NCBI GenBank assembly: GCA_020054235.1
Contig: JAGVLQ010000004.1
Coordinates: 124,652-159,394 of the forward strand
From: Candidatus Babeliales bacterium
GTDB taxonomy: Bacteria > Babelota > Babeliae > Babelales > JACPOV01
Direction: 5' to 3'
Length of the DNA stretch: 34,743 nt
Shown here: positions 1 through 28,410 of the stretch, in pieces
How the letters are laid out: the number at the start of each line of letters is the position of its first letter
Numbering within the stretch: position 1 is the first letter of the stretch
The notes under the pieces: model-generated
What the model was told of the DNA's origin: nothing
The model's database searches: none
The model's input: the letters and a program-made list of their open reading frames with translations, nothing else
Program-made: the position numbers and the translations under genes

Positions 1-1006
1 ACTTAAAAAATTTATAAATTTATCATAAGGACCACCTAAATACAATTGACCAACTGAATGCAAATCAATACTCCCAACTGAAACCGTCGGTGTAATGCCA
101 GTATTTACCTTATTGCCCTCTTTATCAAATTCTTTTCCTAAACTTTCCCCCATTAATTGTCGATACCATTTACCTAGGGATTCTAATTGCACTGAAAACA
201 CAAATAAATCATTAATAGTAATTTGGTTTTTTTTAAGATGTTCATATTTTATTAGAGCATTCACGGCTGCAATATTCTTTTTCAATTCTAAACTCGTACC
301 AAGAACAACCCCGCTTTGAGCACCTTCAAGAAGTTCTTTCACATTCAGATTTAGCATACCTAATGCAAACTGCCCAACGGCTGAAAAAACTGAAAATCGC
401 CCGCCAACTTTTTCAGGAACTGCAAGTACACTGAACTTATTATCTTGTGCCAATTGGTACAAAGGAGAACCATGATCAGTAATTGCTACTACAAAATCAG
501 CAAAATTATCCGGCCGATATTTTTTGAGCAAATCCAAAAAAATTTCGAAATTCGCGATTGTTTCGGTTGTAGTACCCGATTTAGTAACAACATTGAGAAG
601 AATATCCTTATCTTGTTTCAATGCATTTTCAATCAATTCGGTTAAACTTACTATATAATGAGGATCAACCGTATCAGCAAAAAAAATATTCATCGGCATC
701 GCTACATTATAAAAACAACCAAAGCAAGCTTCTATTATCGCAACGGTCCCTAAATTTGAACCTCCAATACCACAAACAATCAAATATGCTGGCTTCAGTT
801 TCTTTTTTTTTTGTAACAAGTTCAAAAACCTCTTGTTGCAGAGAAAAGTCAGAAGGTAAATTTATAAATCCATAATTCGTAGCATAGCCATTGCCAATTT
901 GATCTTGTAGATACTCAATTTCAACAAAAATTTTTTCTGAGTAATTTTCTATAGTTTTTTCATCAACAAGACATGAATCTTTATAGGTAAAAGATAAGGG
1001 TTTCAT
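1..1006 (-). CDS. pgi: Glucose-6-phosphate isomerase, frameshifted, 3' end outside window
   Basis: Interconverts glucose-6-phosphate and fructose-6-phosphate in the cytoplasm. The ATG at 1006 has AAAGGAG upstream. The first frame runs to the A10 tract (T run 803-812 on the plus strand) and would then read out of phase to a stop near 707. Shifting by one base at the tract gives an open frame through to base 1. It holds VCGIGGSNLGT (sugar-phosphate binding), VVTKSGTTTET (the family SKT-like loop), PEKVGGRFSVFS and ESLGKWYRQLMGE. These are diagnostic of the bacterial PGI family, so the product is certain. Whether it is made is not: the extra A could be a sequencing error, a true inactivating indel, or a tract rescued by polymerase slippage. 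It lies about 100 bases downstream of glk on the same strand. Confidence 0.9.
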
Positions 1007-1107
1007 ATGTTTTCTCCTTTTTGCATATTTACTTTTTTAGCCTAATAGATAAAAGTAAAAAAATACAAAGAGATCTTCTAATTTATGCGTTACTATAATT
1101 AGAGAAA

Positions 1108-2178
1108 TCAACCAAGATTTTTTTCTTTCGTTGCCAAAAATCCCCCTGCTCCAAAAAGACTTACATTATAATCTTTTACCACACAAATTCTTATATCTTG
1201 TAATATCATAGACATTTCTCGATTATTCATAAATTCTTGCAAAAACTCTGGCTGATAAAAAAGAGATACATTTTTTGCTGCAATGCCACCAGCAATATAA
1301 AGACCCCCTAAAGAAAGTGATTCGAGTGCAAAATTTTTTGCACAACGCCCATAATAGCCAGCATATAATTTATACGTATCAGCGCATTGCTTATCTTGCT
1401 GGCAATGACCAAAAATAATTTCAGGTCCTATTCCATTCATTTTTATCATTCCTGCAATTTTTGATTTTTGATAAGAATGTTTCAACCCCAAAAAATTATA
1501 AAGATGTACGATGCCACCACCAGAAAGCACATCTTCCCATGAAATAGGATACGAATCACGGATCATATTTTTAAGATATACAAGATATTCGAACTCTTCA
1601 TTTGAATACGCAGAAAAATCTGCATGACCACCTTCTGAAGGAATAGGAATATAACCTTTCAGCGAATAATCCCACCCTAAAATATTTTTTCCTAGGCCAG
1701 TACCAGCACCAATAATGGCACGATTTGCATACTCCCGTTGTTTTCCTTTTTTAATCTCTATTAAATCCTTTTTTGCTATCCAATCAATACCATAGCCAAC
1801 AGCCTCAAAATCATTAATAAGAATGACCGTATGTAACGCGGTTACTTGTATTATTTTTTGTGCATCAATAGCAAAACTTAAATTAGTAGGTTTACAAAAA
1901 TCACGATTTGCTGAAATTACACCTGCTGATCCAATACATGCCTTATTAATTTTTATTTGATATTTCGACCAGAGATAATTGAGTAACTGATTAACCACTT
2001 GAGCAAAATCTTTTATTTCTTTACTTTTTAAATGCAATGAAAGAACCAACCTAACCTTGCCAGACGAAATATCACAAACACCAAAATTGCTATTCGTTCC
2101 ACCAATATCACCTGCAAGCACAACGTTGTTATTGTTTTTTATTGGAGAAACATATACTACTTCTTTAAAAGAAAGCAT
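1108..2178 (-). CDS. glk: Glucokinase
   Basis: ATP-dependent phosphorylation of glucose to glucose-6-phosphate, feeding the neighbouring pgi. The protein is about 356 residues and of the Glk family. The N-terminal phosphate loop LAGDIGGTN is followed by the sugar-site segment ILINDFEAVGYGI, then IGAGTGLG, PSEGGHADFSA and a C-terminal LGGLYIAGGIA that belongs to the second ATP-binding half. I chose the ATG at 2178 because AAGGAAA sits just upstream. A TTG seven codons earlier (2199) has no ribosome site and would include that Shine-Dalgarno in its codons. The gene is divergent from rseP across about 110 bases. Some residues vary from proteobacterial Glk, but the catalytic Asp in NDFEA is present. 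Confidence 0.95.
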   Translation of the reverse strand: MLSFKEVVYVSPIKNNNNVVLAGDIGGTNSNFGVCDISSGKVRLVLSLHLKSKEIKDFAQVVNQLLNYLWSKYQIKINKACIGSAGVISANRDFCKPTNLSFAIDAQKIIQVTALHTVILINDFEAVGYGIDWIAKKDLIEIKKGKQREYANRAIIGAGTGLGKNILGWDYSLKGYIPIPSEGGHADFSAYSNEEFEYLVYLKNMIRDSYPISWEDVLSGGGIVHLYNFLGLKHSYQKSKIAGMIKMNGIGPEIIFGHCQQDKQCADTYKLYAGYYGRCAKNFALESLSLGGLYIAGGIAAKNVSLFYQPEFLQEFMNNREMSMILQDIRICVVKDYNVSLFGAGGFLATKEKNLG

Positions 2179-2287
2179 ATCTATTTTCCTTTTTTTCAAA
2201 CTAGTAGCATTAAATTACACAAAGGATAATTGCAATGTAAATGATATTTTAGGTATGGTTATAAAAAATTGTATCAAGGAAATTATC

Positions 2288-26865: not shown

Positions 26866-28410
26866 ATGGTTACTCACGAAAAAAAAAATCAAATAAAACC
26901 AATTGCTTTAGTAATTCTTGATGGCTTTGGTTTTAACAAAAACATACGCTATAATGCTGTTGCCCAAGCATACAAGCCACACTTTGCTGCATGGCTTCAA
27001 AGATATCCTCATGTATTGCTAACGGCCTCCGGCACATCGGTCGGGTTATTGCCCTGCCAAATGGGCAACTCTGAAGTTGGTCATTTAACTATAGGCGCTG
27101 GTCGTGTAATAGAACAAGACATCACACGCATTCTCTCAGCCATTGATAATGGCTCTTTCTTTTCAAATAAAACAATCATTGATCTTTTTGAAAAAATTTC
27201 CAAAAAAAATTCTCGCTTACACATCATGGGATTGCTTTCTGATGGTGGCGTTCACTCGCATGAAAAAATTGCATTTGCGCTTTTAAAAATGGCAAAAAAG
27301 CAAAATATCACCGATGTTTATGTACATGCTTTTTTAGATGGCCGCGATGTGCCACCACAATCTGCAGCACACTACTTACAAAAACTCGATAAAAATTTTG
27401 CTCAGTTAAACCTTGGCAAACTTGGCTCCATAACCGGTCGATTTTATGCAATGGATAGGGACAAAAATTGGGAACGCACACAACAAGTTTATGAGATGCT
27501 TACCACTAAAAAAGCAATCCCTTTTGCCTCCTGGCATGCTGCACTCGATCACTATTATCACCAAAAAACAACTGACGAATTTGTACCACCAACACAACTA
27601 GATGCTAGCAGTAACATCAATAAAGGCGATGGTGTTATTTGTTTTAATTTTAGAGCAGATCGCGCCTGGCAACTAACTGCCGCATTCGTCGATCCAACAT
27701 TTAATTATTTTCCAACTCAAAAAATTGATCTGAATTTTTTTGCCACTATGACTGATTACAATCATCAGAATAACATTGCAACTGAAGTCATCTATAAACC
27801 GATCAATATTACAAACACTCTCAAAGAAATACTAGAAAAAAATGGCAAATCAATTTTTTCTATCGCCGAAACAGAAAAATATGCCCACGTTACATACTTT
27901 TTTAATGGTGGCAAAGAACAAAAACTACCCAACGAAAAACGAGTATTAATTCCTTCGATTCCCGCAAAAAATTATGTTAATCATCCTTCCATGTCAGCGC
28001 CTGAAATTACGAAGGCTATAATCGATTCATTACAAACAGACCCAAGAGATTTTTATCTTATTAACTATGCCAATGCTGATATGGTCGGCCACTCGGGCAA
28101 CTTGCAAGCAACTATCAAAGCCATTGAGTGCCTCGATGAACAATTATCTGTTCTATATAAAGAATTCGTAGAAAAAAGAAATGGTACTTTATATATAACT
28201 GCAGATCATGGTAATGCTGAAGATATGTTTGATGAAAAAACAGGACAACCAAAAACAGCACACACAACAAACCCAGTTTACTTTTTAATGTTAAAAAAAG
28301 ATGTGCAGCCAGCTATTTTAAAAAATTTACATGGATTAAGTGATATCGCGCCATTTATTGTGGAGCATATGGGCTTGCCACTGCCAAAAGAAATGAAGAA
28401 AAAATCATAA
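26866..28410 (+). CDS. gpmI: 2,3-bisphosphoglycerate-independent phosphoglycerate mutase
   Basis: Interconverts 3- and 2-phosphoglycerate in lower glycolysis; 514 residues, the usual length. It is a manganese enzyme of the alkaline phosphatase superfamily. Metal and catalytic blocks: VILDGFG (D19), nucleophile S69 in MGNSEVGHL, FLDGRDVPP, DRDKNWERT in the substrate-binding domain, FNFRADRAWQ, NYANADMVGHSG and TADHGNAEDM, with HTTNPV. The ATG at 26866 follows AAAGGG; a 21-codon longer frame has no ribosome site. A TTGTAT-18-CATGAT promoter is possible at 26803-26832. It is likely cotranscribed with the secreted coiled-coil gene twelve bases downstream. Confidence 0.97.
   Translation: MVTHEKKNQIKPIALVILDGFGFNKNIRYNAVAQAYKPHFAAWLQRYPHVLLTASGTSVGLLPCQMGNSEVGHLTIGAGRVIEQDITRILSAIDNGSFFSNKTIIDLFEKISKKNSRLHIMGLLSDGGVHSHEKIAFALLKMAKKQNITDVYVHAFLDGRDVPPQSAAHYLQKLDKNFAQLNLGKLGSITGRFYAMDRDKNWERTQQVYEMLTTKKAIPFASWHAALDHYYHQKTTDEFVPPTQLDASSNINKGDGVICFNFRADRAWQLTAAFVDPTFNYFPTQKIDLNFFATMTDYNHQNNIATEVIYKPINITNTLKEILEKNGKSIFSIAETEKYAHVTYFFNGGKEQKLPNEKRVLIPSIPAKNYVNHPSMSAPEITKAIIDSLQTDPRDFYLINYANADMVGHSGNLQATIKAIECLDEQLSVLYKEFVEKRNGTLYITADHGNAEDMFDEKTGQPKTAHTTNPVYFLMLKKDVQPAILKNLHGLSDIAPFIVEHMGLPLPKEMKKKS

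Follow-up and report, generated by a model that had tools for sequence, protein, structure and literature searches.

A one-base frame break at an A10 tract in pgi of a Candidatus Babeliales bacterium, possibly a recent indel with leaky expression

Introduction

In a Candidatus Babeliales bacterium (assembly GCA_020054235.1), the gene for phosphoglucose isomerase (PGI), pgi, is broken by a single base within a run of ten A residues. This raises the question of whether A10 reflects a base read wrongly, a break that occurred very recently, or a gene that is partly rescued by transcription slippage. A first-pass annotation, made from the DNA alone, had proposed a transcriptional slippage site. The window analysed here was the whole stretch of 34,743 nucleotides from contig JAGVLQ010000004.1 (positions 124,652 to 159,394), and positions refer to it unless another sequence is named.

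Rescue by slippage on poly(A) runs in AT-rich endosymbionts, which the annotation had invoked, is published. In insect endosymbionts, 12-50% of transcripts are corrected at such runs (PMC5009743), and Blochmannia vafer has eight such genes (PMC3017870). Homopolymer slips in Buchnera are mostly insertions, and 80% of all insertions are single bases (PMC5574713). In Citrobacter tssM1, mRNAs transcribed across an A11 run carry 10-15 A, so both -1 and +2 changes, with about 20% frameshift (PMC4256274). Phase-variable tracts have been reported near the 5' end of genes (PMC2831843). In the literature searched, no poly(A) slippage genes turned up for the phylum Babelota, and nothing on point was found on frameshift or homopolymer work in Dependentiae, the group to which gene content and genome size point for this bacterium.

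Results

The frame break in pgi

The break was located exactly at the A10 homopolymer (Table 1). The start codon at 1004-1006 on the minus strand is preceded by AAAAAGGAGAAAACAT and has a good Shine-Dalgarno motif, and the frame that opens there with MKPLSF reads MKPLSFTYKDSC...QQEVFELVT and aligns to the N-termini of intact relatives. Past FELVT, the start frame reads KKK, followed by 31 unrelated codons. One base on, another frame (KLKPAYLIVCGIGGSNLGT...) runs for 369 codons without a stop, and the two other frames contain 33 and 37 stops over the same stretch. This frame continues past the start of the window to L087:14344, where it completes PGI and overlaps zwf. The Pfam PGI family (PF00342) matched across the whole gene (3e-27), and the profile match and the conserved residues together identify the downstream frame as phosphoglucose isomerase. 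It aligns along its length to bacterial enzymes of known structure (PDB 2q8n, 3ifs, 1b0z), including the substrate and catalytic blocks; unlike in these, the frame in this assembly is broken after about 66 of 437 codons.

A single reading frame is restored by a run of 9 (or 12) A. The earlier description of a well-formed start, a clean frame after the tract, and a protein restored by one A fewer or two more was confirmed. The uninterrupted A10 is also long enough for slippage, for which at least about 9 A/T are required.

Table 1. Features of the pgi locus in the window
Feature	Position	Strand	Basis
A10 homopolymer (T10 on the plus strand), pgi frame break; A9 is the phase matching relatives	803-812	-	Tract search and alignment of relatives
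pgi frame 5' of the tract: ATG start and 64 codons as far as FELV, then the Thr and Lys codons within the tract, an out-of-frame tail and a stop (at 707)	707-1006	-	
pgi frame after the tract, part in the window from the first in-frame TTG	1-825	-	Universally conserved PGI residues within it
Shine-Dalgarno AAGGAG, 7 nt 5' of the pgi ATG	1014-1019	-	Sequence
AAGAGG, then in-frame TTG codons (823-825, 817-819); weak, putative internal start	817-836	-	
Intact glk, which heads the glk-pgi-zwf-gnd cluster; start probably at ATG 2178	1108-2199	-	Pfam

Rescue could also be sought in translation. A programmed ribosomal frameshift was considered and rejected, as the phase needs +1, the fold of the downstream RNA is unremarkable (z -0.11) and the site has no stop codon; the nearest Shine-Dalgarno-like AAGAGG lies 16 nt 5' of the run and is not well placed. 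A looser form of rescue, by +1 ribosomal frameshifting at the run or by initiation at an internal TTG to give an N-truncated PGI, is hardly credible. AAGAGG does lie 3 and 9 nt ahead of the two in-frame TTG codons, and all universal PGI columns except one are 3' of the tract. However, a +1 (or -2) shift would be needed, as opposed to the -1 usual on A AAA AAG, there is neither a stop codon nor a downstream structure at the site, and the N-terminal region is kept in every intact relative.

The remainder of the gene

Apart from the single lesion, pgi is intact and shows no decay. After the tract, none of the 41 universal columns (those invariant in 19 relatives) was lost. Identity to 15 closer relatives averaged 50.5%, compared with 49.7% among those relatives. 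Before the tract, the corresponding values were 24.6% and 27.5%. There were two departures at otherwise invariant columns, which is mid-range among relatives, and GC content by codon position was similar to the values for the nearby genes glk, zwf and gnd. In a neutral simulation with substitutions only, the chance of having no stop and no lost invariant residue fell below 5% beyond 2% divergence. If the gene were dead, its neutral age would therefore be less than about 2% divergence; this intactness bounds the age of a dead pgi and is no proof of a live gene.

The tract in relatives

A search of 101 genomes from the phylum gave PGI matches in 54 and none in the other 47. The comparison of tract length that had been suggested was carried out on the homologous patch of more distant relatives. 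None of the 53 other genomes with matches had a comparable break; a few short PGI frames in the sample seem to lie on split or truncated contigs, judged by coordinates only. At the homologous lysine patch, 34 distinct intact relatives carry A runs of 2-9, never 10 and always in frame. The longest run reached 9 in four of them, 8 in another three and 7 in three more, with shorter runs in all others; in the three relatives from the same family as this bacterium it was at most 6, 6 and 4. A break shared with relatives would have supported slippage rescue, although rescue does not require it, and none of the 34 was broken.

The distance from the Y-x-x-x-A-S segment to GIGGS is fixed in most relatives. 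A9 reproduces this spacing without a gap and A12 gives one residue more, so the tract in the assembly exceeds the usual in-frame state by one base. As the same-family relatives have no long run, an ancestral A9 in this lineage is inferred from more distant genomes, which counts against the explanation favoured below. None of the relatives compared is congeneric, and the nearest are about 50% identical in protein, so that synonymous sites are saturated. Among genome contigs, the only other copy of the site was in one distant relative, a Halanaerobacter, and no further copies were found in viral contigs or plasmids.

The patch itself is a lysine cluster (QKKKL), in which long A runs can arise by drift in AT-rich genomes. 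This makes it a mutational hotspot without the need for a special signal. It also bears on the possibility that the tract is a contingency locus, where high-rate flipping between A9 (on) and A10 (off) would switch PGI among cells. Like phase-variable homopolymers, the run lies in the 5' part of its gene, and a change of one base turns the gene off (PMC2831843). A phase-variable tract would occur in both lengths within a population; that of pgi is known as one assembled length. However, PGI is a housekeeping enzyme that is neither on the surface nor host-facing, the relatives with A9 are all on, and the lysine patch accounts for the run without selection for switching. We therefore regard a contingency locus as improbable, even with the state of mismatch repair described below.

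Other long runs and mismatch repair

The tract is one of many, as the 1.25 Mb genome has 40 distinct runs of A or T that are 10 or 11 bases long, which goes against treating it as a special site. The survey of their reading frames covered about 290 kb, in stretches picked around long runs together with pattern searches, so the rates of breakage are those of a non-random sample. In these stretches, 16 other runs of 10-11 keep the frame; each lies 20 codons or more within an open frame of at least 110 codons. Two of about 18 runs break the frame, that in pgi and possibly a second on contig C22; each is one base over the in-frame length. No clear break was found at runs of 7-9 in 287 kb.

The C22 candidate is a T10 (C22:36587-36596; L089:2588-2597) at which the frame of a secreted hypothetical protein may be shifted by one base, with 58 residues before it and 205 after; homologues align solely to the part after the run, which makes this break uncertain. 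One of the 16 in-frame runs lies within the window, an A10 in gpmI at 26879-26888, only a few codons past the likely ATG of that gene, where slippage would cost product, and it therefore offers a natural internal control. The window also encodes, at 11513-12589, a protein with a signal-peptide-like start and two thioredoxin-like CGxC domains joined by a linker rich in Lys, Pro and Glu.

Two broken runs in about 18 are compatible with a low rate of either true indels or consensus errors. The runs that keep the frame rule out an assembly that is generally unreliable at such sites, and still allow a single error. An error in the consensus or assembly, or a strain present as a minority, with the cells carrying A9 and a normal pgi, is a possible explanation, although on balance an unlikely one. 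In its favour, pgi has every appearance of a gene under full selection, the mismatch amounts to one base in a homopolymer of the longest class, and the source is a draft (29 contigs, 95% complete) in which the second possible break is likewise one base over. Against it stand the 16 runs in frame and the lack of clear breaks at runs of 7-9, so that error is not systematic.

The mismatch-binding domain of MutS (domain I) was not found in this 95% complete draft; MutL is present. A MutS-like ATPase (PF00488) with a signal-peptide-like N-terminus is encoded at L075:11349-13424 on the minus strand. The missing domain is suggestive, and no more than that, of unstable runs.

The gene cluster and its metabolic setting

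Based on Pfam assignments, glk, pgi, zwf and gnd follow one another on one strand, and pgi and zwf overlap by four bases. The order pgi then zwf, often with gnd as well, recurs in the loci of 11 relatives. From the overlap and the conserved order, zwf and gnd would be expected to suffer too if translation came to a complete halt within pgi.

It had been argued that glk needs a working PGI to keep its role. This does not hold, as zwf in the same cluster uses glucose-6-phosphate, and 3 of the 10 genomes with glk (out of 49) have no pgi; pgi without glk occurs in 17 genomes. Phosphofructokinase (PFK, PF00365) likewise had no match in any of the 49, which weakens the argument further, and transketolase is present. 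With PFK not found, a role of PGI beyond standard glycolysis is more likely, namely linking the pentose phosphate cycle with the need for fructose-6-phosphate. Across the phylum sample, upper glycolysis is patchy (PGI in 54 of 101 genomes, PFK in 0 of 49 and glk in 10 of 49).

The frequent lack of PGI matches in the phylum suggests that the gene is dispensable in the group, which is in favour of a freshly broken pseudogene, with A10 fixed, negligible rescue and decay not yet begun, as part of the loss seen in about half of the phylum. The intactness of pgi limits only the age of such a break. However, a polar break would be costly given the overlap and the conserved order, 369 codons have passed without a stop or a lost invariant residue, and slippage is known to occur on runs as long as this one. 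A fresh pseudogene is therefore a rather improbable explanation.

Discussion

The explanation that we tentatively favour, at somewhat short of even confidence, is that a gene under selection has recently gone from A9 to A10 and is still expressed leakily through ordinary slippage of RNA polymerase. Replication slippage would recently have expanded by one base an in-frame A9 run of the kind often present in AT-rich relatives at the lysine patch, with pgi under normal purifying selection up to that event, or still so. The majority of mRNA from A10 would give a dead product of 99 residues. Ordinary, non-programmed slippage could yield a minority of mRNAs with A9 or A12, from which full PGI would be made, and these mRNAs would also sustain translation into the overlapping zwf. 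The break, the intact frame after it, the cluster and the A9 of relatives are shown; that A10 is real, that slippage takes place and that the quantity of PGI matters are presumed.

This reading draws on the A9 that 4 of the 34 intact relatives carry in frame, with A8 in a further 3, and on its gap-free alignment, on the 41 kept columns with relatives-like identity and the 2% limit of the simulation, and on the cluster with its overlap and its recurrence in 11 loci. The 16 other in-frame runs argue against a general fault of the assembly at long runs, which would be unstable in the absence of the MutS mismatch-binding domain. If A10 is real, slippage is to be expected here from the published A11 and endosymbiont cases. 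Rescue requires -1 or +2, and since slips in Buchnera are mostly insertions, it would be weak.

The proposal of a slippage site is thus plausible in its simple form, if A10 is real, and fails for a programmed or conserved site, as there is no stimulatory RNA structure and the break occurs in no relative. As the phase is also wrong for a -1 ribosomal shift, "leaky by nature" fits the tract better than "slippage site". In a stronger version, pgi would be a selected, leaky gene in which slippage keeps PGI low and, through the overlapping start, sets how much PGI is made relative to zwf and gnd, so that glucose-6-phosphate is diverted to the oxidative pentose pathway where PFK was not found; we consider this very doubtful.

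The closest parallels are the slippage-rescued genes of Buchnera and Blochmannia (Tamas 2008 and Wernegreen 2010, as cited in PMC3017870 and PMC5009743), which also lie in AT-rich reduced genomes and have one indel in a long run, with the remainder undamaged and evolving normally. In those bacteria, slippage was shown in RNA and some breaks are common to related strains or species, whereas the pgi tract is known from the DNA of one assembly and its break is in no relative compared. In tssM1 of Citrobacter rodentium, the A11 run is also just 5' of the frame break, and slippage restores the frame in part of the mRNA (PMC4256274), which for pgi is only predicted. That gene depends on a +1 change, on both of its products and on the ratio between them, whereas in pgi -1 or +2 is needed and the short product has no indicated role.

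If A10 is an error, the locus calls for caution with single-base frame calls within long A runs. If it is real, gene callers would wrongly score PGI as lost, and metabolic reconstructions that rely on draft assemblies of this group would go wrong at homopolymers. The tolerance of poly(A) frameshifts, best known in insect endosymbionts, would then reach another lineage with small, AT-rich genomes.
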